26,688 nt of DNA from a virus. Location of the stretch: IMG/VR virus record IMGVR_UViG_3300009506_000278, positions 1-26,688 of that record. One strand, written 5' to 3'. Numbering within the stretch: position 1 is the first letter of the stretch; every line of letters starts with the position of its first letter. Shown in pieces: positions 1-23,984 of this stretch. Below the pieces are notes generated by a model that worked only from the letters and a program-made list of their open reading frames with translations, did no database searches and was not told where the DNA came from. The position numbers and the translations under genes are program-made.

Positions 1-444
1 CAGCGGGACTGGCTCAAGCTCCTCGTGCAGGGCTTGACGATGAACGCCAAATACGGCATGGCCTGTCCATCAGGGGAGTGCTCCACTACCCCACAGCGCA
101 GTGGGCAGCCGGGCGATCCGTTCGAGGTGCATCTTGTCAAGGGGCCGCTTGCTTGGTTTTGCGCCGTGGTCCGGCGCCAGGTGTTCGTGGATACCGGCCT
201 CTTTGACGAGGATTTCATTCACTACGGAGATGAAAGCGACTTTGTGCAGAGAGCGCAGCGCAAGGGCTGGGCGCAAATTTGGGTGAAGGGCGTCTACATC
301 AAGCACTTGAGAGCGGTGAGCACACAGGACAACAAGCAGCTCAGGAACCAATGGGCCAAGCACGACAAGAGCTTATACAGGCGCAAGTGGGTAAACAAGG
401 GGGCAAAGAGGAGACGAGCTAAGGCAGTGAAAGCCAATGCCTAG
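1..444 (+). CDS. Glycosyltransferase family 2-like, C-terminal part (5' end outside window)
   Basis: The frame is open from base 1, so this is the C-terminal part of a longer protein; internal ATGs at 25 and 40 are not needed as starts. The visible motifs fit the C-terminal half of GT2 (WcaE/rhamnosyltransferase-type) enzymes: KGPLAWFCAVVRR, then GLFDEDFIHYGDESDF, where the acidic D-E-S-D cluster sits where the catalytic base and acceptor-binding residues of GT-A enzymes lie, then a basic tail rich in Lys and Arg. Such enzymes move a sugar from a nucleotide-sugar donor to a glycan, lipid or protein acceptor. The stop overlaps the next gene (a methyltransferase) by 8 nt, so the two are probably co-translated. 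The donor-binding N-terminus is missing here, so donor and acceptor cannot be inferred. The family call is fairly secure; the role in virion decoration is inferred from context. Confidence 0.8.
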   Translation, partial: QRDWLKLLVQGLTMNAKYGMACPSGECSTTPQRSGQPGDPFEVHLVKGPLAWFCAVVRRQVFVDTGLFDEDFIHYGDESDFVQRAQRKGWAQIWVKGVYIKHLRAVSTQDNKQLRNQWAKHDKSLYRRKWVNKGAKRRRAKAVKANA

Positions 445-1084
445 ATTCTATCGCTATTCGGGCATTCCAGAGCTGTGGCGTACAGTGGGCATATTGCAGT
501 TCTCATTCTTGCGTGAGCATGGTTTGGAGCCTGAGAGCTACTTGCTGGATGTAGGTTGTGGTGCATTCCGGTTGGGCCGGTTGGTCATTCCCTACCTGAA
601 ACCGGGGCATTATTACGGTATCGATCGCAATGGGGGTGCCTTGACATATGGGCGCAAGGAGCAATTGGGGTACAAGATGATCCGGCGCCGGTATCCTCAT
701 ATTGAAAATCTGAAATTGGGGGATGGTCCGATTGATCTGCCCCGTATTTTGGAGCGCGATCGTTTTGACATTGTATGGATGCACGCCCTGCTGGATCACA
801 TGAAACCGGCACAGGTAAACCGGGCTTTGTGCGATGTGGCACCATTGGCCGGGGATATTTACGCAACGGCTTTTGTCTCAGATAGCCAAGAGCCGGTCCT
901 GTGGGAAGAAAAGGGTGTCTTTGCCACGACATATCCAGATAAAGACCCATTCCACTACCCGATGGAGCGATTGCAGGGCTGGATTGAGAATGCAGGGTTG
1001 GCCCTCGTGGATGTGCCCGGCTATGGGCACCCACTGGGGTTGACGATGCTACATTTGAGGAGCACACCATGTTCTGTTACATAA
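437..1084 (+). CDS. SAM-dependent class I methyltransferase
   Basis: A 215-residue protein with a Rossmann-type methyltransferase signature. Motif I is LLDVGCGAFRLG (about residues 36-47). It is followed by YYGIDRN, which carries the acidic residue that normally contacts the ribose of S-adenosylmethionine, and by FDIVWMHALLDHM in the motif IV region. The fold and sequence style resemble small-molecule or sugar O-methyltransferases rather than DNA methyltransferases: there is no DPPY or NPPY. It overlaps the upstream glycosyltransferase by 8 nt and the downstream sulfotransferase-like gene by 16 nt, so it is probably part of the same glycan-tailoring set. Substrate unknown; methylation of a sugar on the glycan is an inference from neighbours. 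Confidence 0.8.
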   Translation: MPRFYRYSGIPELWRTVGILQFSFLREHGLEPESYLLDVGCGAFRLGRLVIPYLKPGHYYGIDRNGGALTYGRKEQLGYKMIRRRYPHIENLKLGDGPIDLPRILERDRFDIVWMHALLDHMKPAQVNRALCDVAPLAGDIYATAFVSDSQEPVLWEEKGVFATTYPDKDPFHYPMERLQGWIENAGLALVDVPGYGHPLGLTMLHLRSTPCSVT

Positions 1085-1806
1085 CCGGCACAGGCCGCAC
1101 GGCTACCCATTGGGTGCAGAGCATTATTGATGCCTCGTGCAGTAACGGGGTGGCGACGTTCCATGATGAATTTCTAAGACGTGCAAAGATCAGGAGTACC
1201 AAGGGTGCATTCTGGCGCAACTACCTGCTCAATCTGGAAGCCAGGAGCAAGGGAGCCGGAACCTATGTGGAGTGCAACCCGGCGCTCTTGGAGCACGTTG
1301 CCCTGACCTACGGCATAACCAGTGCGCCCGGTGTGCTCCCTTCCGATGTGCAAGCGCATGGGCTGCTGATCACCCGGCACCCATACACTTATGCGGCCTC
1401 GTTGAAGGCGAAGGGGTGGGGTTGGACTTGGTGGAAGTACCCAATGGCGCGGGACGTGTTCAACATCGGCACCGACTTTGCCAACCGAAGCATGGTAGAG
1501 CAGGCGGCGATCGCGTGGTCCTGCAAAAATGCCTTTGCTCATGGCCTGCTCAAGGGCGATTGCCTGTGGCTCAAGTACGAGTTTCTTTTTGACTACCGGG
1601 TGAGCCAGGCGCGATACTTGGAGCGCGTTCACTCAATTTTCGAGCAGTTCAAAATTGAGCCGCAACGGGGCGACAACTTGATCTGGCAGATGCGGAACAA
1701 CCGATCGGCAGTCAAGAACAAGGACAAGATCAGCCTGACAGCGGCAGAGAAGCAAATGGTCAAGGCGATCTGTGGGCCGGTGATGGAGCTTTATGAGTAT
1801 GTCTAG
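1069..1806 (+). CDS. Sulfotransferase-like P-loop protein
   Basis: A 245-residue protein. The N-terminus YITGTGRTATHW (residues 4-15) looks like the 5'-phosphosulfate-binding loop of PAPS-dependent sulfotransferases. The segment ITRHPYTYAASLKAKGWGW, near residue 101, resembles the strand with the conserved Arg and Ser that bind the 3'-phosphate of PAPS. These enzymes transfer sulfate from PAPS to a hydroxyl group, often on a sugar. The ATG at 1069 has AGGAG six bases upstream and lies inside the end of the methyltransferase gene. It overlaps the next gene by 14 nt. It is not obviously a close paralogue of the second sulfotransferase that follows. A more general P-loop kinase-like role cannot be excluded, because the loop is not the canonical GxxRSGT form. 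Confidence 0.65.
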   Translation: MFCYITGTGRTATHWVQSIIDASCSNGVATFHDEFLRRAKIRSTKGAFWRNYLLNLEARSKGAGTYVECNPALLEHVALTYGITSAPGVLPSDVQAHGLLITRHPYTYAASLKAKGWGWTWWKYPMARDVFNIGTDFANRSMVEQAAIAWSCKNAFAHGLLKGDCLWLKYEFLFDYRVSQARYLERVHSIFEQFKIEPQRGDNLIWQMRNNRSAVKNKDKISLTAAEKQMVKAICGPVMELYEYV

Positions 1807-2461
1807 CACCTGTGTGCTGGTCCTTGGCGTGCCCCGAAGCGGCACAAGTTGTGTGGCCGGCGTGTTGCACCAGCTTGGCTGTGATATGGGGGCCGGGCAC
1901 TTTCAGCCCACCGACAAGTTCAACCCCAAGGGCTACTTTGAGGATCTAAGATGGCGCTATGCCAACCAGCGGATCACGGGCAAGGGATACTCGTTGAGGG
2001 CGGCCAATGTGGCCCACATCGGCACAGTGCAGAAAAAGACGTACCGGGCGCTTGCCCGAAAGCGCAAAGACACGCCGTTATGGGGCATCAAAGATCCGTG
2101 GCTTTGCTTTCTCGGGCAATTCATCTGGCCCATCCTGCTACAGGAGGGCTTCAAGGTGCAGATCGTGGTCACCCAGCGGGAGCGCAAGGCCAGCATTGCC
2201 AGTGTCCAGAAGCACTTGCAGACCACGTACAAGGGGCGATACAAGTATGATGCCAAGCACATCATTGACACCTGGCAGGCCGGTCTTGACCGGCAGTTGT
2301 TGGCCTGGGAGGGGCCAAGTTACACCGTCCAGTATGAGCACTTGGTAGCCAAGCCGTTGCCCGAGATTCGCAGCCTGGCAAGTTTCGTGTTCGGCTCCGA
2401 GTTCAGGAACAGTTTTGACGCCGTGGCCCGATGGGTCAGCGGCGATTTGAAGCACTTTTGA
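1793..2461 (+). CDS. Sulfotransferase family protein
   Basis: A 222-residue protein with a clear sulfotransferase start: LVLGVPRSGTS (residues 9-19) is the 5'-phosphosulfate-binding loop. The NPKGYFED stretch is a pattern familiar from bacterial sulfotransferases. VTQRERKASIASVQKH (about residues 126-141) supplies the Arg and Ser of the 3'-phosphate site. The expected reaction is transfer of sulfate from PAPS to a hydroxyl of a sugar or lipid. The ATG at 1793 has GGAG five bases upstream; a second ATG lies two codons on. It overlaps the preceding sulfotransferase-like gene by 14 nt and is 15 nt from the aminotransferase gene. No PAPS-synthesis gene is visible, so PAPS would have to come from the host. 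Confidence 0.8.
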   Translation: MSMSSTCVLVLGVPRSGTSCVAGVLHQLGCDMGAGHFQPTDKFNPKGYFEDLRWRYANQRITGKGYSLRAANVAHIGTVQKKTYRALARKRKDTPLWGIKDPWLCFLGQFIWPILLQEGFKVQIVVTQRERKASIASVQKHLQTTYKGRYKYDAKHIIDTWQAGLDRQLLAWEGPSYTVQYEHLVAKPLPEIRSLASFVFGSEFRNSFDAVARWVSGDLKHF

Positions 2462-2476
2462 TAGGGGGTAGGAACG

Positions 2477-3604
2477 ATGATACAGATTTTCAGTAACACA
2501 CTGGGAATTGAAGAACTGGAAGAGGTCAACAAGGTTTTCAAAAGCCGGTGGCTGGGCAAGGGCAACCAATGCACGGCTTTTGAAGAGGAGTTTGCCGGGT
2601 ATCTTGGCACGGATCGTCCGGTGCTCCTGTTCAACAACTGCACCAGCGCCACGTTTACGGCCCTCGAAGCGCTCGGCATCGGGCCGGGTGACGAGGTGAT
2701 CGTGCCGGCCATCCAGTTTGTCGGGGTAGCCAATGCGGTGATCCATTGTGGGGCGCGGCCTGTCTTTGCCGACGTGGACCGGCACACGATGCAAATTCTG
2801 CCCGAGGAGATCGACCGGCTACGATCGCCCGAGACGAGGGCTGTGTTCCTGCTCCACTATGGCGGCCATCCCGCCCCGATGTTCGGCATCCGAGAAGCGG
2901 CATACCGGCTGCTCATTCTGGAAGATGCCGCCAATGCGGTGGCAAGCACCTGGGAGGGCAAAGCCTGTGGCACACTCGGTGACGCCGGGGTGTGGTCCTT
3001 TGACGCGATGAAAGAGCTGGTCATGGTGGATGGCGGGGCACTGTGGATGCAGAGCGATCACGCCAGGACGTATGCCGAGAAGTTGAGGTACTTTGGTTTT
3101 CCACCGAAAGCTGCCAGTGGTACGGACTCCCAACGAAAAGGCAACGGGCGCTGGTGGGAATTTCAGGTAGAAACCGGGGGAGGCCGGCACATCAGCAACG
3201 ATGTGCTTGCCGCCATCGGGCGTGTGCAATTAAAAAAGCTGCCCTCCTTCATTAAGCGACGCCAGGAGGTTTGGGAACAGTACCAGGGCGCTTTTGCCGG
3301 TGTGCCGGGCATCACGCGACCGCCCAACCCGACGCCCAACAGCACATCAAGCTATTACCTGTATTGGGTGCAGCTCGAAAAGCGCGATGAATTGGCGCGG
3401 TTTCTGTGTGAGCATAGCATCTACTGCACGTTCCGGTACTATCCCCTGCACCAAGTGCTCTACTATGGGAGCCGCCAAACATTGCCCGGTGCGGAGTGGG
3501 CCGCTGAGCACACGTTGTGCTTGCCCATCCACCAAAACCTGAGCGATCAGGACGTGGGCCGGATCATTGACACGGTTGTGTCATTTGCAAAGAGGAATCT
3601 CTAA
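2477..3604 (+). CDS. DegT/DnrJ/EryC1/StrS-family PLP-dependent sugar aminotransferase
   Basis: A 375-residue protein of normal length for the family. It shows the expected order of motifs: an N-terminal SRWLGKGNQCTAFEEEFA segment, FNNCTSAT in the PLP phosphate-binding region, GDEVIVPAIQFVG, then LEDAANA with the Asp (D150) that contacts the PLP ring nitrogen. SFDAMKELVMVDGGAL carries the candidate Schiff-base lysine (K179). The family transaminates keto-sugar nucleotides to amino sugars. The first bases of the next gene, a probable virion protein, follow the stop directly (TAA then ATG), so the sugar gene appears to belong to the same operon as the structural genes. The exact sugar substrate cannot be read from sequence alone. 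Confidence 0.88.
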   Translation: MIQIFSNTLGIEELEEVNKVFKSRWLGKGNQCTAFEEEFAGYLGTDRPVLLFNNCTSATFTALEALGIGPGDEVIVPAIQFVGVANAVIHCGARPVFADVDRHTMQILPEEIDRLRSPETRAVFLLHYGGHPAPMFGIREAAYRLLILEDAANAVASTWEGKACGTLGDAGVWSFDAMKELVMVDGGALWMQSDHARTYAEKLRYFGFPPKAASGTDSQRKGNGRWWEFQVETGGGRHISNDVLAAIGRVQLKKLPSFIKRRQEVWEQYQGAFAGVPGITRPPNPTPNSTSSYYLYWVQLEKRDELARFLCEHSIYCTFRYYPLHQVLYYGSRQTLPGAEWAAEHTLCLPIHQNLSDQDVGRIIDTVVSFAKRNL

Positions 3605-4255
3605 ATGGCCGATGTGACGCCAAAACAGGGGGAAGGGCTACAGGCCGACATCCGAACACGCTACAAGGACATGCAAGACACTACCCATGCCCTCGTGACG
3701 GCTACCCGTTCCTTTGGGGAGTATGGCGAATACGGCATGGATCACATCACCGGGGGCCGGGTAGTGATTGACATTGCCCACCACGAGATACACGAAGGTG
3801 AGACGTGGTTGGTATCGTACAAGAGTGCGGATGCTACACCGATCGCTGACAATAACCCGATCACGTTCGCCGTCATCACTACGAGTAAATATTGCCACAT
3901 TCTGGCCCGTGGTGCGGCAGGCGGCGATATGGAAGCGCTTTTGTACGAGGGGTCAACTCTCCTGGCCGGCACGGGTACGGCGATGACAGAGTACAACAAG
4001 AACCGGCCTTATGGGGAGGGTGGCAACACGGCATCGGTGATCCTCGATCCGCAGGTGGTAGCCGTGGGAACACTGATTGAAAATGAGTTTATCCCAGGGG
4101 GCACGGGGCCGCAGGCCGTTGGCGGGGCCAGTACCATGCGTGCTGAGTGGGTGTTGAGGCGCAATACCACCTACCTGGTGCGCATCATCAACCGGGCCGG
4201 AAACGCACAACCCATGAGCCTGGCCCTCGAGTGGTATGAGGAGAGCACGAACTAA
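3605..4255 (+). CDS. Probable virion structural/decoration protein with RYKDM N-terminal module
   Basis: A 216-residue protein of unrecognised family. Residues 16-34 (IRTRYKDMQDTTHALVTAT) closely match residues 16-34 of the protein encoded at 4478 (MQTRYRDMGDGTHALVVST), so the two share an N-terminal module. The rest is rich in Gly, Thr and beta-prone segments without signal peptide or membrane helix, ending in a strand-rich part (TTYLVRIINRAG, MSLALEWYEE). Its position between a sugar-modification cassette and the head-tail joining genes suggests a particle-surface protein. The start directly follows the aminotransferase stop, and the stop overlaps the next start (TAATG). Function is inferred from position only. 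Confidence 0.6.
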   Translation: MADVTPKQGEGLQADIRTRYKDMQDTTHALVTATRSFGEYGEYGMDHITGGRVVIDIAHHEIHEGETWLVSYKSADATPIADNNPITFAVITTSKYCHILARGAAGGDMEALLYEGSTLLAGTGTAMTEYNKNRPYGEGGNTASVILDPQVVAVGTLIENEFIPGGTGPQAVGGASTMRAEWVLRRNTTYLVRIINRAGNAQPMSLALEWYEESTN

Positions 4256-4473
4256 TGGCCACCCCGATGTATGGCGTAGACCCGGCAGGGCAGAGCAAGC
4301 CGCTCTCCGTAGACGAGCGGGGCCGCTGGTTGCCCTCCCCATTTCCCTACAGAACGTGCAAGGGATTGCTTGGGCGATCCCTCGATTGGATGGCAGACAA
4401 TTTGCCCCTGACTTTGTTACTGGTGGGGGTCAATGCACAGCTAGGTGTGATCATCTGGCTGCTAGTGAGGTAA
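4255..4473 (+). CDS. Small protein with one C-terminal transmembrane helix
   Basis: A 72-residue protein not recognised as a named family. The N-terminal 45 residues are polar and probably unstructured (GVDPAGQSKPLSVDERGRWLPSP). The C-terminus is one hydrophobic segment (LPLTLLLVGVNAQLGVIIWL) followed by a final arginine. It starts within the previous stop (TAATG) and is followed four bases later by the next virion-like gene. A holin or another membrane-acting role is possible on size, but holins usually have a charged C-terminal tail and lie next to an endolysin, neither of which is seen here. A tail-anchored accessory protein is equally possible. Confidence 0.55.
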   Translation: MATPMYGVDPAGQSKPLSVDERGRWLPSPFPYRTCKGLLGRSLDWMADNLPLTLLLVGVNAQLGVIIWLLVR

Positions 4474-4477
4474 AACG

Positions 4478-5098
4478 ATGGCAGACATTATCCGAAATCA
4501 GCAAGAGAGCGTGCCCAACAGTATGCAGACCCGGTACAGGGATATGGGTGATGGCACCCATGCACTGGTCGTATCCACGGGTGGAAGCTCAAATATTCAG
4601 GTGGGCAATACCGATGTGAGCTTGACCAACCCGGTGCCTACTGTTTCGCCCATCGAGATCACGCAAACGCCGATAATCACGGCAGGTGCCTATGCAGCCG
4701 GGGATGCCGTGGGCGGCCTCCTGACCTTTGCCAATGCGGTGAGGGCAGCCGGTGGGCAGGCTGTGATCACCAAGGTGGTCATCACCGACGATGCGGCACA
4801 GCGGGTGGCGCTCGATCTGGTGCTCTTTGACCGGACATTCACGGCAACGGCTGACAATGCGCCCTTTGACCCGAGCGATGCCGACCTTGCCAACTGCATT
4901 GGCTACATTGACACGGCAGCCACCGACTATGCCAACTTTGTGGATAACGCGGTAGCGGCCAAGTTGAGCGGCTTGAGAATGCCCTTCCCGATTGCGCTGA
5001 ACGGCACAAGTTTGTTCGGGCAGCTTGTCACCCGTGGGGCGCCGACGTATGCGGCAACAGATGATCTCACAGTGAAGCTCACTATTGAGAGGTTCTAA
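4478..5098 (+). CDS. Probable virion structural protein with RYRDM N-terminal module
   Basis: A 206-residue protein. Residues 18-34 (TRYRDMGDGTHALVVST) form the same N-terminal module as the protein at 3605. After a linker rich in Val, Thr and Asn, the remaining part (LDLVLFDRTFTATADNAPFDPSDADL) resembles a protein I recall from many tailed-phage structural clusters, with no assigned function. A beta-rich fold is likely; there is no signal peptide or membrane helix. It lies between the small membrane protein and the LamG-like protein, and its stop overlaps the next start (TAATG). The best reading is a capsid decoration or neck-associated protein; the exact place in the particle is not shown. 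Confidence 0.62.
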   Translation: MADIIRNQQESVPNSMQTRYRDMGDGTHALVVSTGGSSNIQVGNTDVSLTNPVPTVSPIEITQTPIITAGAYAAGDAVGGLLTFANAVRAAGGQAVITKVVITDDAAQRVALDLVLFDRTFTATADNAPFDPSDADLANCIGYIDTAATDYANFVDNAVAAKLSGLRMPFPIALNGTSLFGQLVTRGAPTYAATDDLTVKLTIERF

Positions 5099-5826: not shown

Positions 5827-6254
5827 TGTGGCATGGATACATTGTAGTTGAACGGGGCACTGTGGGGATTGGAAATTGGCAATCGCTGATTGCCCTATTT
5901 GAGGCGATGGGCACGCACGATAGTGCATTCCCGGCAGAGAACACGCACGACCGGGCGCGGCTGGATGGAAATGCGGCAATCTACGAATCGGCCTTTGACC
6001 CGGCAGAGGTCACAATTGAACAGTTCAAAGAGCTGCTTGCGGCTGAGTTCTCGATCCCGGTCGAGGACATCGAGCACACCATTGGCGCCGATGATTACGC
6101 CGGGTATGGCACAACAGTGTGGGAATTTCTGTACTCCGGCATAATCCGCTTTGTGGTGCGCCGATTCGGGCAGGGTGGAACGTGGGCACAATCCCGGCTT
6201 GAATGCCTGGGATACTTGGCAGCGAATCGGGCAGAGTGGGAAGAGGTGATCTGA
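5826..6254 (+). CDS. Unknown phage protein upstream of connector gene
   Basis: A 142-residue protein from ATG 5826, which overlaps the previous stop (TGATG); a GTG three codons upstream is possible. I do not recognise the family. The middle is acidic (FDPAEVTIEQFKELLAAEF, VEDIEHTIGADD) and the end is helical and mixed charge, with TTVWEFLYSGIIRFVVRRFGQGG. There is no signal peptide, and the hydrophobic stretch is too short for a confident membrane helix. It sits between the LamG-like protein and the connector, with TGATG coupling at both ends, so it belongs to the virion operon and may be a head or neck component. Confidence 0.6.
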   Translation: MWHGYIVVERGTVGIGNWQSLIALFEAMGTHDSAFPAENTHDRARLDGNAAIYESAFDPAEVTIEQFKELLAAEFSIPVEDIEHTIGADDYAGYGTTVWEFLYSGIIRFVVRRFGQGGTWAQSRLECLGYLAANRAEWEEVI

Positions 6255-6955
6255 TGGCTTATTGCACCGTTGCGGAACTGAAATCAAGTATGCAAAAAAC
6301 CGATGCCACAGATGATGTGCTCCTAGGGCGTATCATCGAGGGAGCAGAGCGCAAGATCAACCGCTTTTGCAACCGGCCGGACGGCTTCGAGGCCGACGCG
6401 GTAGCCAGTGCCCGGTACTACAAGGGCAGCGGCAAGGCTTACCAGTTGATCGATGAATGTGTAGAGATCACCGTGGTAGCCGTGAAGGATGCCATCAGCG
6501 ATGATGATTACACCATTTGGGATAACCCCACCACCATGTTTGCCGGGAACGGCGATTGGTACCCTGGCACGGGCGATCCCGACAACCCGCAATTCAACGA
6601 GCTGCCCTATACCATCGTTTTTGTAGACCCGAACGGCGATCAGAGTTGGTTCACCGGAGAGGATGGGGCCATGCGAAAGCGAGGCCGGGAAGTCAGGGGC
6701 ACATCCCTCCTGGCACGGGTGCCAACGGTGCGCGTAACGGCCAAGTGGGGATACAGTGTAGCCGTTCCTGATGACATTCAGGAGGCGTGCATTATGCAAT
6801 CGAGCAGATGGTATAAACGTTTGCAATCCAGCATGGCAGATACACTAGCCAGCGCTGACCTGGGGCAACTGCTCTATGTGCAGCAGCTCGATCCCGACAT
6901 TGCCGGGATTCTCTTGGATGGGCGCTATGTGAAGCCGGGAGTTGGGCGACGGTGA
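6254..6955 (+). CDS. Head-tail connector protein (HK97 gp6-like)
   Basis: A 233-residue protein from ATG 6254, which overlaps the preceding stop (TGATG); the frame is open further upstream but that would overlap the previous gene by 51 bases. The N-terminus AYCTVAELKSSM, then DDVLLGRIIEGAERKINRFCNR, is characteristic of the gp6-like head-tail adaptor family, which forms a ring under the portal. The C-terminal part VPDDIQEACIMQSSRWYKR, which follows a VRVTAKWGYS strand, also fits. It is longer than minimal gp6 proteins, which are near 100-150 residues, with an acidic insert around WDNPTTMFAGNGDW. It is followed by a gp10-like gene with a 4-nt overlap, as usual for this module. Confidence 0.78.
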   Translation: MAYCTVAELKSSMQKTDATDDVLLGRIIEGAERKINRFCNRPDGFEADAVASARYYKGSGKAYQLIDECVEITVVAVKDAISDDDYTIWDNPTTMFAGNGDWYPGTGDPDNPQFNELPYTIVFVDPNGDQSWFTGEDGAMRKRGREVRGTSLLARVPTVRVTAKWGYSVAVPDDIQEACIMQSSRWYKRLQSSMADTLASADLGQLLYVQQLDPDIAGILLDGRYVKPGVGRR

Positions 6956-7437
6956 GCGAGATTGGTGTCAGTGTTGAGGGACTAAAAGAGTTCTATGCCA
7001 AGCTCGATCAGGTGAGCCGGGATATTACAGGCACCCCGATGGGCACAGCGATGGCACGGGCAACGCTCTTGGTCACCCGTTCAGCGCGAAAGAATGCGCC
7101 CGTGGATCGTGGCCCTTTGCGTGCCTCCATCGTGCCGCAAGTGGTGATCCGCACGCAAGAGGTGCGCGGCATCGTGGGCAGCAACATCGAGTATGCACCC
7201 TATCAGGAGTTTGGCACGCGGCCATTCCGGCCACCGTGGGGGCCGCTCTATGCCTGGGCGCTCAGGGTGACCAAGGGCAACCGGGTGGAGGCCGGACGAT
7301 TGGCAGCCGGGGCCATCCTGGCCATTTCAGCCCGAGGTATCAAGGCGAAGCGCTATCTGCAACGGGCTGTTACAGAGAACGCACAGCGGATCTACCGGAT
7401 CATAGGTGATGCAGTCAGAACAATTATAAGGAAGTGA
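6952..7437 (+). CDS. HK97 gp10-like head-tail joining/neck protein
   Basis: A 161-residue protein starting at GTG 6952, overlapping the connector stop by four bases. It shows the usual features of the HK97 gp10 family: VEGLKEFYAKLDQV near the N-terminus, ATLLVTRSARKNAPVDRGPLRASI, and then NIEYAPYQEFGT in the middle. The APVDTGxLR-like and YAxxxExGT-like motifs are the hallmark. These proteins help form the head-tail interface. The family usually runs from about 110 to 150 residues, so this one is slightly long at the C-terminus, which is basic. The call agrees with the neighbours, connector before and terminator-like after. Confidence 0.85.
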   Translation: MSEIGVSVEGLKEFYAKLDQVSRDITGTPMGTAMARATLLVTRSARKNAPVDRGPLRASIVPQVVIRTQEVRGIVGSNIEYAPYQEFGTRPFRPPWGPLYAWALRVTKGNRVEAGRLAAGAILAISARGIKAKRYLQRAVTENAQRIYRIIGDAVRTIIRK

Positions 7438-15293: not shown

Positions 15294-16115
15294 ATGACCA
15301 TTCACGTAACACGCTCAATGACCAAGTTGTGGAAGCGCATGGGGTATCTTGAGAGTACAGACCCCCAAAAGCGCACCTGTGCCCCGCTGGTATCCTTGCC
15401 CTTCATCCGGGCCGGGTGGACGATGGGCTTTATTGACTATCAGAATCCCCGCGTGTGCGATGTGACCGGCATGGGCTACCGGCTGACCGACAATAACGCC
15501 CCTGTTTATGGCTTCGATTTGAGCGCTCCTTATGCTGAGTTCGATGGAGTAAACCAGTGGCTAAACCGGGCCGATGGCGGCGCCGGCAACTGGGCTGACA
15601 TCCTGGGCACCGAAGCATACGTTCCGGCTGCTCAACGGGGGCTGACTTTTGGCGGCTGGTTCAGGTTTGACCGGCTGACCAATCACGAGTTCTTGATCGC
15701 CAAGGACACTACGGTGGTGGGCACATCAAGCTACCGGCTCTCTTTTCGTGGCGATGTAGCTAACGATCCCTTCTACTTTGTCATCAGCAACGGGGCCGCG
15801 TTTACCACAGTCACCCATACCCTGAGCAAGACGGTGGAAATTAGCCGCTGGTACTTTGTCGTGGGGCGCTACACGCCGGGCGCCGAGATCAAAATCTATG
15901 TAGGCGCGGGTGATGCAGTGGAATCGAGTACCAACGTGGTGGCCATCCCGGCAGCGCTGAACGACAGCACCGCCGATCTGACCATCGGCTCCCAAAGTGG
16001 CGGCGGCCTCTACCTCGATGGCCGGGCCTCGTGCTGTTTCCTCTGTGCCGGGGCGCTCAGTGATGCGTGGGTGCGATGCCTCTATTCCCAGCTTAGAGAG
16101 ATATTCCGAGTTTAG
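15294..16115 (+). CDS. LamG/concanavalin A-like protein, probable tail-tip receptor-binding protein
   Basis: A 273-residue protein, starting two bases after the hub gene. It contains a LamG-like jelly roll: YAEFDGVNQWLNRAD, RGLTFGGWFRFDRL, EFLIAKDTT, ISRWYFVVGRY, EIKIYVGAGDA, and DLTIGSQSGGGLYLDGRASC. Last helix: LSDAWVRCLYSQLREIF. The order matches a single complete domain. As the last rightward gene of the tail block, it is a good candidate for the receptor-binding or host-range protein. Its stop overlaps the integrase stop on the other strand by four bases, leaving no space for a separate terminator. It is only weakly similar by eye to the LamG gene at 5098, so recent duplication is unlikely. 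Confidence 0.78.
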   Translation: MTIHVTRSMTKLWKRMGYLESTDPQKRTCAPLVSLPFIRAGWTMGFIDYQNPRVCDVTGMGYRLTDNNAPVYGFDLSAPYAEFDGVNQWLNRADGGAGNWADILGTEAYVPAAQRGLTFGGWFRFDRLTNHEFLIAKDTTVVGTSSYRLSFRGDVANDPFYFVISNGAAFTTVTHTLSKTVEISRWYFVVGRYTPGAEIKIYVGAGDAVESSTNVVAIPAALNDSTADLTIGSQSGGGLYLDGRASCCFLCAGALSDAWVRCLYSQLREIFRV

Positions 16116-16993
16116 TATCTATCACCAGGCGACAGGCTCTTGTGTGCCTCGGTCAGGTCGCCATTCACGATGTGCAAGTAGATTTGCGTCGTCTCGATGC
16201 CAGTATGGCCCAAGATGCGCCTGAGATACTCGAGATTGCCCCCTGCCCGGAGATACTCAGTGGCAAAGGTATGGCGCAGCATGTGCGGGTGTAGATGGTA
16301 GGGCAGACGTGCATCGAGGGTACGGAAGAGACGCCGCAGGCCATCCCGTGTGAATCGCTCCCCGAATCGTGAGACGAAAAGTGGTTCTGCCTCGGCCTCG
16401 GGCCGGTTTCTGAGGTAGCGGTGCAGCCATAAGCGCATCTTTGCCCCGAGCGGCACATGCCGATCTTTGCTGCCCTTCCCTTTCCTGACAATGATCGCGC
16501 TCTGCTCCAAGTCCACATCTCCTACATCGAGGTTGATCAGCTCTGACAATCGCAGGCCGGTGTCAAGGAAAAGCCGCACAATCGTTTCGTTGCGCTGGGG
16601 ATGCGTAGTGCCCTTGACTGCACGAAGGAGCATTTCAATCTGTCCCGGAGAGAGTGCCTTGGGCAGGTTTTGCGGCAACCGGGGCGGCTTGATGCCCTCC
16701 ATCGGGCTACTGGTTAGATACCCTTCCCGCTTGCACCAGTAGAAGAAGGTTCGTAGGGATCGAAAATCCTGGTGGATGGTGTAGGCGCTCAAGCCCTGCT
16801 CTTGCCGGTGGGCAAAATAGAAACGCAGGTTTTGCCGAGTGACCCGGTTCAGGGGCAGATCCCCAACGATGTTGATCAGCCGTTGCAATGCGTCGAGGTA
16901 GACGCGGCTTGTCTTGGGTGCTTTGCCCTCGACAAGCAGCACGAAGCGCCACTCCTCACGCAGCTCCGAGAGCAGCAAAGAGCAGATGGTCAT
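16112..16993 (-). CDS. int: Tyrosine recombinase / phage integrase
   Basis: A 293-residue protein on the minus strand. The best start is ATG at 16993-16991 with GAGGG five bases upstream; the frame is open to 17062, but this would run into the attachment region. It has an N-terminal SAM-like core-binding domain (about residues 5-90) and a C-terminal catalytic domain with all family residues: R148 in TGLRLSEL, K173 in KGKGSKDRHVPL, H237 and R240 in HMLRH, H263 in LGHTG, Y272 as the nucleophile. No residue is missing, so it should be active. The length is that of XerC/XerD-like and simple phage integrases, without an obvious arm-binding extension. The attP-like region lies directly upstream. 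Confidence 0.92.
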   Translation of the reverse strand: MTICSLLLSELREEWRFVLLVEGKAPKTSRVYLDALQRLINIVGDLPLNRVTRQNLRFYFAHRQEQGLSAYTIHQDFRSLRTFFYWCKREGYLTSSPMEGIKPPRLPQNLPKALSPGQIEMLLRAVKGTTHPQRNETIVRLFLDTGLRLSELINLDVGDVDLEQSAIIVRKGKGSKDRHVPLGAKMRLWLHRYLRNRPEAEAEPLFVSRFGERFTRDGLRRLFRTLDARLPYHLHPHMLRHTFATEYLRAGGNLEYLRRILGHTGIETTQIYLHIVNGDLTEAHKSLSPGDRY

Positions 16994-22204: not shown

Positions 22205-22404
22205 ATCCCAACTCTAAACAAGTCCGACTGAGTGACACAACCGTGATCGGCCTGCACTTTGACCAGGCCGAGATCGTCAAGAGCAGCACCAAGCCGGTTG
22301 GGGAGATCATCGCCCTAGTCGACTTGCCCAAGTGGCGAGGGTGGAAAGCCGCGAAGAAAGCCGAGTGCGTCTATAGGCACTTGCGGGATGTGGTGGGGCT
22401 ATGA
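22201..22404 (+). CDS. Small protein of unknown function
   Basis: A 67-residue protein starting at GTG 22201, overlapping the nuclease stop (GTGA). It reads MNPNSKQVRLSDTTVIGLHF, then a helix-rich basic end (WRGWKAAKKAECVYRHLRDV). No family recognised. Close coupling to the nuclease on one side and the J-domain protein on the other (4-nt overlap, ATGA) supports that it is real. Confidence 0.55.
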   Translation: MNPNSKQVRLSDTTVIGLHFDQAEIVKSSTKPVGEIIALVDLPKWRGWKAAKKAECVYRHLRDVVGL

Positions 22405-23222
22405 GTACATACACCCATATCACGCCCCAGCGCGATGGCTCCCTTGCGTTTCAGTCGCCCTACGATCCGGGCCTCGTGGCCGCGCTCAAGGCGGCGATCC
22501 CTTATGCCGATCGCAGGTGGGAACCATCAGACAAGACCTGGCGGGTAGCCCCCCAATGGGCCAACACCCTGGCCGACCTGGCAGAGCGGTACACCGGGAT
22601 CAGGCCGCAGGTGCCACAGGTGCAGGTCCAGGCGCGAACGGAAACCAAGCTCTTGGATGTGCGCTACCTCGGGGCCGCAAAGGACCGGGGAAACGGCGAA
22701 GTAACCGCGTTTGGGTGGTCCAATGGGGGGTGGACCACCATCTTTCCCTTGGCAGTACTCCATGAGTGGTTTGCCGTGGATACCAGGCCAGAGGAGGCTG
22801 CCACGTTGTACGCGGTTTTGGGCGTCAAGCGCACAGTGTCCGTGGCTGACCTGAAGAGTGCCTATCGCCGGGCGGTTCGACAATGGCATCCTGACGTTTG
22901 CACCGATCCAGATGCCGGGGAGCAGTTCATCTTGATTCAACGGGCCTACGAGGTGTTAAGCAACCCCTTACAGCGCCGCAAGTATGATGCTGGCCTACAG
23001 TTGGCCTCGACGGTAGAGCGCACAAGCGCCGACTTGGACAAAACGCGCTACGGCTGGAAGCCACCGCTCCGGTGTGGCTACATCCTCTGTGAGGGCCAGG
23101 AGCAGTTTGGGCGCTTTGTCGTTTCAAAGATTCTTGGTTGGGAGGACATTGTAAGCAGCCGGGGGACACTGGTCACCTCGTGGCGTTATGGAGATGATAC
23201 GTTTACAGAGAGGTGGATATAG
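22401..23222 (+). CDS. J-domain (DnaJ-like) protein with HARP-like N-terminal region
   Basis: A 273-residue protein. Residues ~135-205 form a J domain: TLYAVLGVKRTVSVADLKSA, then YRRAVRQWHPDVC with the catalytic HPD (163-165), and AYEVLSNPLQRRKYD. The J domain recruits and stimulates an Hsp70 (DnaK). The N-terminal part, FQSPYDPGLVAALKAAIPYA then RRWEPSDKTWRVAP, resembles the HARP domain of SMARCAL1-type proteins, which binds branched DNA; this is a pattern match only. The C-terminus (DLDKTRYGWKPPLRCGYILC) is unassigned. The gene lies in the recombination/replication block, so a chaperone-assisted replisome role is plausible. No Hsp70 is in the window, so a host DnaK is implied. Confidence 0.78.
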   Translation: MSTYTHITPQRDGSLAFQSPYDPGLVAALKAAIPYADRRWEPSDKTWRVAPQWANTLADLAERYTGIRPQVPQVQVQARTETKLLDVRYLGAAKDRGNGEVTAFGWSNGGWTTIFPLAVLHEWFAVDTRPEEAATLYAVLGVKRTVSVADLKSAYRRAVRQWHPDVCTDPDAGEQFILIQRAYEVLSNPLQRRKYDAGLQLASTVERTSADLDKTRYGWKPPLRCGYILCEGQEQFGRFVVSKILGWEDIVSSRGTLVTSWRYGDDTFTERWI

Positions 23223-23422
23223 ATGAACACCCAAACCACAAAAGCACTCAGGCGCACAGAGCTTGGCTTGGCTATTCAACATCCAAAGATGCCGAGTACC
23301 TACGCGCTCAAATTGGGGGACTGGAAGCGGCGATTGAGGAAATGAAGCAACAGATCCAAGACTACCAAGAGAACATCGCTCTCTTGCTGGCAACCATAGA
23401 AGGAGCAATCCCCGATGAGTAA
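23213..23422 (+). CDS. Small coiled-coil protein
   Basis: A 69-residue frame starting at GTG 23213, overlapping the J-domain gene by 10 nt. The C-terminal half is a predicted coiled coil (LRAQIGGLEAAIEEMKQQI and DYQENIALLLATIEG). The start is not secure: a separate ATG at 23223, better spaced from GAGG, opens a different 40-codon frame that ends at 23345. The overlap with the next gene (8 nt) and the heptad pattern favour the longer frame, at least from the coiled-coil part on. Function unknown. Confidence 0.5.
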   Translation: MDIDEHPNHKSTQAHRAWLGYSTSKDAEYLRAQIGGLEAAIEEMKQQIQDYQENIALLLATIEGAIPDE

Positions 23423-23984
23423 CGCATTGACTTTGGGTAGTTTGGGAGCAGTGGCACAGCGTGACCATATCAGCCTTGCCGAATCGTTCTTGAGCGCTGA
23501 TGCTCTGCTAATCGTGGACATGAGCGGCAGTATGGGCGCCAACGATGCACCAGGGGGCCAGAGCCGCTACGAGGCCGCGGAAGCCGAGCTGAGACGGCTC
23601 CAAGAGCAATTTCCCGGCAAGTTGGCCGTGATCGCATTCAGTGACATTGCCGAATTTGCCCCAACGGGCATCCCTCGGCGCATCGGGAATGGCACCAATT
23701 TGGCAGGTGCGCTCCGCTTTGTCAAGCCTGCCGATGGGACCGGAATCAAGTTCATTGTCATCAGCGATGGGCAGCCGGACGACGAGCAAGCCGCCCTCGA
23801 CGTGGCGCGAACGTTCACAGACCGGATTGATTGCGTCTACATCGGCCCGGAGGATGGCGGCGCTTGGGGAGGGCGCGCATTTCTCGAGCGGTTGGCAAAG
23901 GCCAGTGGGGGCACTTTTTCAAAGTCGAACGCACCGGGGCTGTTGGCCGACCAGGTTACTTTGCTCTTGGGAGCGACGGCGTAA
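23415..23984 (+). CDS. VWA-domain protein
   Basis: A 189-residue protein that is almost entirely one von Willebrand factor A domain. The metal-ion-dependent adhesion site is complete: DMSGS (D35, S37, S39), T94 in GNGTNLAGAL, and D118 in ISDGQPDD. There is no signal peptide or membrane helix, so it acts in the cytoplasm, where VWA proteins usually serve in protein complexes, often with AAA+ ATPases; no MoxR-type partner is visible here. Its N-terminus overlaps the coiled-coil gene by 8 nt. Function is unknown beyond metal-dependent partner binding. Confidence 0.85.
   Translation: MSNALTLGSLGAVAQRDHISLAESFLSADALLIVDMSGSMGANDAPGGQSRYEAAEAELRRLQEQFPGKLAVIAFSDIAEFAPTGIPRRIGNGTNLAGALRFVKPADGTGIKFIVISDGQPDDEQAALDVARTFTDRIDCVYIGPEDGGAWGGRAFLERLAKASGGTFSKSNAPGLLADQVTLLLGATA

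Follow-up and report, generated by a model that had tools for sequence, protein, structure and literature searches.

In the mycobacteriophage Corndog, an O-methyltransferase gene and glycosyltransferase (GT) genes lie between the portal and the protease genes, and a role in capsid modification was proposed for them (PMC4351075). Two further accounts report that the capsids and tails of Che8 and Corndog are glycosylated and that the GTs responsible, gp110 of Che8 and gp38 of Corndog, are essential (PMC12363180; PMC11256854, citing Freeman et al. 2023). A cultured Cellulophaga phage, phi17:1, carries a Methyltransf_24 gene and a GT gene (gp41–gp42) inside its virion operon. In bacteria, O-antigen and flagellin-glycosylation loci have conserved flanks, and the GT, methyltransferase, epimerase, aminotransferase and dehydrogenase genes that they carry are interchangeable. 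What sulfotransferases do in phages has been described as unclear (PMC10580990), and a search of the open-access literature found no papers linking phage sulfotransferases to virion glycans.

The locus described here is a cassette of 15 genes (c1–c15), the 3′ third of which (c11–c15) opens the window, i.e., the 26,688-base fragment of an IMG/VR virus record that was analysed. Like the Corndog-type cassette, it places O-methyltransferase and GT genes among the head genes of the virion operon, and the TylF/Methyltransf_24 family is common to both. However, the Corndog type, for which the relatives Firecracker and Catdawg stood in (Cluster O mycobacteriophage comparison), has three GTs and one methyltransferase, without sulfotransferase or aminotransferase, in the portal–protease interval, whereas the cassette here comprises 15 genes, with variable cargo, in the interval between the genes for the major capsid protein (MCP) and the head-tail adaptor (the MCP-to-adaptor interval). 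Catdawg gp34–gp36 showed no convincing homology to the cassette GTs when compared with the cassette HMMs (best E 0.005); thus, any functional likeness to Corndog comes without shown homology. The Che8-type system (Cluster F) is similar in its phage-encoded GTs and in the reported capsid glycan (PMC11256854, PMC12363180), but in the related phage Maravista the GT genes are found close to the genome's 3′ end and away from the head genes (PMC11256854). The phi17:1 GT matches c5 (5e-34) and c2 (1e-5), although this phage has only two such genes, located 5′ of the protease and MCP genes and without a sulfotransferase. With the bacterial glycosylation loci the cassette shares conserved flanks around variable sugar-enzyme cargo; in contrast to them, it lacks membrane export and polymerisation genes, sits in a phage virion operon and has a phage-specific c1–c2 core. 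It is best read as an enlarged, variable relative-in-kind of the Corndog arrangement that includes sulfation enzymes. Phage virion glycosylation is known from a few mycobacteriophages and a handful of enzymes; the module seen here is of the same kind but is core to a whole clade, far larger, variable between lineages in the manner of a bacterial surface-antigen locus and equipped with sulfotransferases.

Five codirectional genes occupy positions 1–3,604 of the window and are directly adjoined by virion genes (Table 1). Their coordinates and order had been given in a sequence-only reading, with which the ORF calls and family searches agree. The first four ORFs overlap by 8, 16 and 14 bp, a 15-bp gap precedes the aminotransferase gene c15, and c15 meets the next gene with zero gap. 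A full-length copy of c11 is present in the relative G001 (L001:5987-6655; 222 aa), and its LNDD and DE.F.HY motifs are conserved in the alignment. The methyltransferase c12 is an accessory gene, being missing from the relatives G006 and L010. In c15, the catalytic PLP-lysine motif SFDAMK is invariant in the alignment, and the nearest solved structure is TlmJ (5uid, 1e-105).

Table 1. Genes of the cassette and of the adjoining virion region; coordinates refer to the window.
Gene	Coordinates	Strand	Assignment	Basis or remark
c1			GT-related	without DXD
c2			GT8-like	
c3			GT2	
c4			sulfotransferase	Sulfotransfer_2, PF03567 2.6e-10
c5			TOD1/MUCI70 GT	4e-20
c6			Cys-containing protein	no family given
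c7, c9			GT-D fold	scores below curated cutoffs
c8			UDP-glucose-dehydrogenase-like	weak match
c10			methyltransferase	by reading; 37% homologue in L096
c11	1..444	+	GT2-type glycosyltransferase	PF13632 9.6e-5, below cutoff; 5′ end lost at contig edge
c12	437..1084	+	SAM-dependent methyltransferase	PF08242 7e-7, PF13847 2e-6, just above cutoffs
c13	1069..1806	+	sulfotransferase-like protein	motif-level assignment only
c14	1793..2461	+	sulfotransferase	PF13469 (Sulfotransfer_3) 4e-8, above cutoff; PAPS-binding GVPRSGTS loop
c15	2477..3604	+	DegT/DnrJ/EryC1 sugar aminotransferase	PF01041 5e-85, whole-length match
	3605..4255	+	probable virion protein, right after cassette	phrog_5335 3e-16
	4255..4473	+	small protein, one hydrophobic stretch	KD19 maximum 2.16
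	4478..5098	+	probable virion/decoration protein	direct reading; L169 homologue 65% over 172 aa
	5098..5826	+	LamG/ConA-like domain virion protein	PF13385 2e-8
	6203..6955	+	head-tail adaptor, closes MCP-to-adaptor interval	phrog_442 1.7e-14
	6952..7437	+	neck/tail-completion protein	phrog_5 3e-20

Two sulfotransferases had been claimed for these five genes. The claim is borne out for c14, which matches its family profile and has relatives in other phages, while within the window c13 earns the name by motif only. Its assignment comes from the motifs GTGRTATHW and RHPYTYAAS-type, of which GTGRTATHW and R-x7-S are invariant across four phage relatives. Searches of Pfam and the PDB with c13 returned zero matches, the comparison of its profile with two sulfotransferase families by hhalign was not significant, and its AlphaFold model was unusable (pLDDT 41). 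On its motifs, c13 may thus be termed sulfotransferase-like. A second clear sulfotransferase gene, c4, is found upstream of the window's genes in G001.

G001 (IMGVR_UViG_3300010413_001230) is a 49,310-base virus contig with 97% identity to the window over the compared shared 10.5 kb. It reaches further upstream and adds, in the direction of the window, the terminase, portal, MuF-like, protease and MCP genes (MCP: PF05065 7e-46), followed by a gene for a head-associated 145-aa protein, hyp145. Between MCP and the head-tail adaptor, 15 tightly packed genes span 10.4 kb and make up about one-fifth of the genome of this phage. A glycan cassette is therefore present as the sequence-only reading stated, but its real size is three times what that reading could see. 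Beyond the window's genes, G001 adds six GT-type genes, the Sulfotransfer_2 gene, a UDP-sugar-dehydrogenase-like gene and a methyltransferase gene. The first of these, c1, may be catalytically inactive, given its absent DXD; its AlphaFold model was unusable (pLDDT 47). In c2, DAD and HxxG are kept in 14 of 14 aligned members and D-A-D-T in 49 of 54; a Pfam search with c2 gave no match, and the solved GT8 enzyme glycogenin-2 matches it weakly (E 0.003 over 29 positions). The pairs c3/c11 (34–35% identity) and c7/c9 (31–34%) are paralogous, suggesting that the cassette was partly diversified by duplication.

The cassette was found beside structural genes in every relative examined. Its position is retained, as far as the contigs reach, in L010, L011/G006, L013, L015 and L017, at MCP identities of 49–77%, and its gene order is the same in G006, L010 and L013. 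G006 (54.7 kb), in which the two ends of the contig each hold part of the portal gene, as circular permutation would produce, has 13 of the 15 cassette genes. Identities to G001 are 52–80% for the cassette and 43–78% for the virion genes. With unsaturated dS, dN/dS is 0.08–0.27 for cassette genes and 0.09–0.28 for virion genes, where dS >1 makes single ratios rough but leaves the direction clear; against G001 it is 0.05–0.28 where measurable. Judged by these ratios, the cassette is under purifying selection, and since the order is also kept in diverged phages, the five-gene arrangement is not due to chance. The earlier claim that a glycan cassette is embedded in a virion operon is supported, and the check proposed with it, conservation next to structural genes, comes out in its favour.

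A wider set of 80 loci, forming 63 clusters at 90% aa, was picked by MCP similarity alone, and HMMs of the cassette genes were used to annotate it; lineage counts refer to the 45 clusters whose sequence continues for 2.5 kb or more 3′ of MCP. Directly after MCP and hyp145 (the latter present in 44), c2 occurs in 45 of 45 lineages and c1 in 44. This conserved front end is joined in many lineages by the GT2 gene c3 and the TOD1-type c5, and the order c1-c2-(c7)-c3-c5 was seen again in at least 10 more distant lineages. The MCP-to-adaptor interval measures 4.1–9.2 kb (n = 12 lineages, median 7.1), whereas the cultured Caulobacter phage TMCBR2, an outgroup with an MCP homologue at 34–37% identity, has an interval of 1.0 kb in which no GT is annotated. 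The cargo 3′ of the core varies by lineage and includes sulfotransferases (e.g., a Sulfotransfer_1 match at 5e-22 in L107, one of several lineages with such genes), methyltransferases, aminotransferases, epimerases and further GTs. Among the 136 other ORFs of the interval, from 29 lineages, most encode enzymes of polysaccharide biosynthesis, epimerases, sulfotransferases, methyltransferases or GTs; a Pfam tally of them gave Methyltransf_24 (19), Glyco_trans_1_2 (13), Sulfotransfer_3 (7), GT2 (6) and Epimerase (5). Pairwise MCP distances correlate weakly with those of c1/c2 (Mantel rho 0.17–0.21, vs. 0.45 for c1–c2 and 0.57 for MCP–portal), suggesting that GT core sequences were exchanged between lineages even though the core is always present. 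In 50,697 phage records, no match was found for c2, c4, c11, c12 or c14. The island of L115 carries ABC-transporter and melibiase genes, whose presence is easier to reconcile with host sugar metabolism than with virion glycosylation.

Among the genes that follow the cassette, the one starting at 3605 has no more than 79% identity between two phages that share about 99% in the rest of the region, with a dS of 0.67 against at most 0.2 in neighbouring genes. Its product and that of the gene at 4478 have an N-terminal TRY(K/R)DM..(T/G)THALV motif in common.

The presence of a glycan on the virion, and its sulfation, are inferred; a role of such a coat in hiding the particle or in attachment, as proposed in the sequence-only reading, would be a further possibility. 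In the reading that we consider probable, soluble cassette enzymes glycosylate a particle protein, and the island between MCP and the adaptor specifies a lineage-specific anionic virion glycan. The island would probably be transcribed with the late virion genes, and late in infection the soluble GTs would add sugars directly to a particle protein to form a short chain; this protein could be the capsid, hyp145, or a decoration or fibre protein. The DegT aminotransferase would make a sugar nucleotide of the 4-amino-deoxy type, probably starting from a 4-keto precursor of the host; host precursors are assumed because the cassette does not encode a complete sugar-nucleotide pathway. Methyltransferases and PAPS-dependent sulfotransferases would finish the sugar residues, giving an anionic glycan that differs between lineages, and exchange of cargo would alter the particle coat, as in serotype switching. 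The broader proposal, to which we give about even chances, is that the head operon throughout an entire uncultured tailed-phage clade contains an O-antigen-like locus, with a fixed GT core tied to the capsid gene and exchangeable sulfo-, methyl- and aminosugar cargo, and that this locus produces lineage-specific, often sulfated virion glycans ("serotypes"). If true, phage sulfotransferases would gain a concrete function, and diversification of the phage particle surface would become testable, including in the cultured phage phi17:1.

Within virion glycosylation, the sugars may instead go to a tail fibre or to an appendage of the collagen-like or LamG type, with a role in adsorption and not in shielding. 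Sequences of the collagen-like type carry O-glycans in BclA of Bacillus. The island is followed by genes for LamG and motif-sharing decoration proteins, and in phi17:1 a collagen-repeat fibre accompanies a TOD1-type GT and a methyltransferase; moreover, one relative encodes a collagen-like GPT-repeat, tail-fibre-like protein beside the adaptor. However, fibre-like genes are variable or missing across lineages, and the genes that constantly adjoin the GT core are those of MCP and hyp145; this sub-case is considered less likely than not. Gtr-type phage GTs modify the host surface, and the cassette enzymes might likewise remodel host surface polysaccharide, in lysogenic conversion or superinfection exclusion, and leave the virion unaffected. 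G001 does have an integrase gene and a probable repressor gene, and the bacterial relatives of the aminotransferase include some in typical surface-polysaccharide loci such as L022. Nevertheless, the island lies inside a codirectional late operon in all lineages, and G006, in which the window's integrase has no relative, keeps the cassette. The 15-gene cassette encodes neither a flippase, a polymerase nor an initiating transferase, and no other membrane protein is predicted from it; TM-like stretches are absent from the cassette proteins (none with KD19 ≥2) and occur in 2 of 142 island ORFs, which disfavours a lipid-linked surface-polysaccharide route. Remodelling of the host surface is therefore considered unlikely.

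Many phage GTs act on DNA, which is listed as a usual target in a paper on one phage lineage (PMC12619734), so that the cassette could instead protect phage DNA against restriction through glycosylated or hypermodified bases. This is much less probable still: no pyrimidine-hydroxymethylase-type gene was recognised by eye among the G001 and G006 ORFs, the cassette sits among head genes, and sulfotransferases and DegT aminotransferases suit glycan finishing better. Both DNA hypermodification and surface conversion are accordingly ranked below virion glycosylation. The enzymes belong to the families that make up bacterial polysaccharide loci, which would also fit a host surface-polysaccharide cluster that was captured recently and is now passenger DNA. 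This reading is extremely improbable given the purifying selection, the identical site in 45 lineages, the c3/c11 and c7/c9 paralogue pairs inside the cassette and the relationships of its aminotransferase. The best bacterial DegT match to c15 has 49% identity, compared with 68% between phages, and 79 of the 80 bacterial loci of the aminotransferase subfamily have no further cassette gene in their flanks (up to 10 kb).

The single exception, L096 from a Selenomonadaceae MAG, has a c10 homologue near the aminotransferase gene. Some bacterial relatives do lie in surface-polysaccharide loci; because the bacterial homologues sit in loci without the rest of the cassette, recent transfer of a host surface cluster was rejected. 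The bacterial loci, the selection and the MCP-selected lineages thus contradict the idea, raised beside the original claim, that the cassette belongs mainly to host surface clusters and only recently moved. In the genomes compared, the cassette occurs as a unit in phages alone, where it is old, while the enzyme family is widespread in bacteria. Relatives of MCP were not found in one-per-species bacterial genomes under the patterns used. The Pro/Thr-rich linkers are a hint of a Chloroflexota host, not evidence for one. In the parts of the relative G012 (99.9 kb) that were read, all genes were phage-like.

At the place of the cassette gene c6 (encoding a Cys-containing protein), L008, a relative with 95–100% protein identity, carries a DNA-methyltransferase-like ORF; the swap is an exchange of cargo at short distance. 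The gene directly after the cassette in the window is 79% identical to its counterpart in the near-identical phage G001, against approximately 99% for the neighbouring genes; here a gene for a probable surface protein has been replaced locally. The Pro/Thr-linker protein also differs in position, lying within the island (the interval between the major capsid protein and head–tail adaptor genes) in the relative G006 (L011), and upstream of the terminase genes in G001.

In one relative (L115), an ABC transporter/melibiase gene set is placed between the glycosyltransferase (GT) genes and the head–tail adaptor. L169, whose glycan island is rich, holds an AMP-binding enzyme within that island, adjoining a PglD-like acyltransferase and a TylF methyltransferase; its GPT-repeat, fibre-like protein is a candidate acceptor of the glycan. 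In the cultured phage, the GT, which matches both cassette GTs c5 and c2, sits with the methyltransferase in the virion operon.

In the unrelated phages L002 and L003, a short sulfotransferase-like ORF overlaps the terminase large-subunit gene at its end. By reading only, the IbrA/DUF3440-like gene of G006 has a ParB/IbrB-like neighbour.

Coordinates of cargo and other genes (rc, reverse-complement coordinates)
Feature	Location	Remark
DNA-methyltransferase-like ORF	L008:8267-8998	inside cassette, at place of c6
Probable surface protein gene	window 3605-4255	directly 3' of cassette
Secreted-looking protein, Pro/Thr-rich linker	L011:12343-13125; G001rc 15681-16439	
GltX-like class I tRNA-synthetase domain, solute-binding protein, two ABC permeases, melibiase	L115:10768-17673	one relative's island
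AMP-binding enzyme, amino-acid-adenylation type	L169:4086-5561	match 4e-66
Collagen-like GPT-repeat, tail-fibre-like protein	L169:14411-15661	near head–tail adaptor
Methyltransferase and GT	L252:7555-9227	cultured Cellulophaga phage phi17:1
Short sulfotransferase-like ORF	L002:3146-3676; L003:5958-6479	unrelated phages
IbrA/DUF3440-like gene, PAPS-reductase-type	L019 and L020 (G006rc 31115-32979)	minus strand; by reading only
DnaJ-domain-like and VWA-like protein genes	window 22401-23984	early region; by reading
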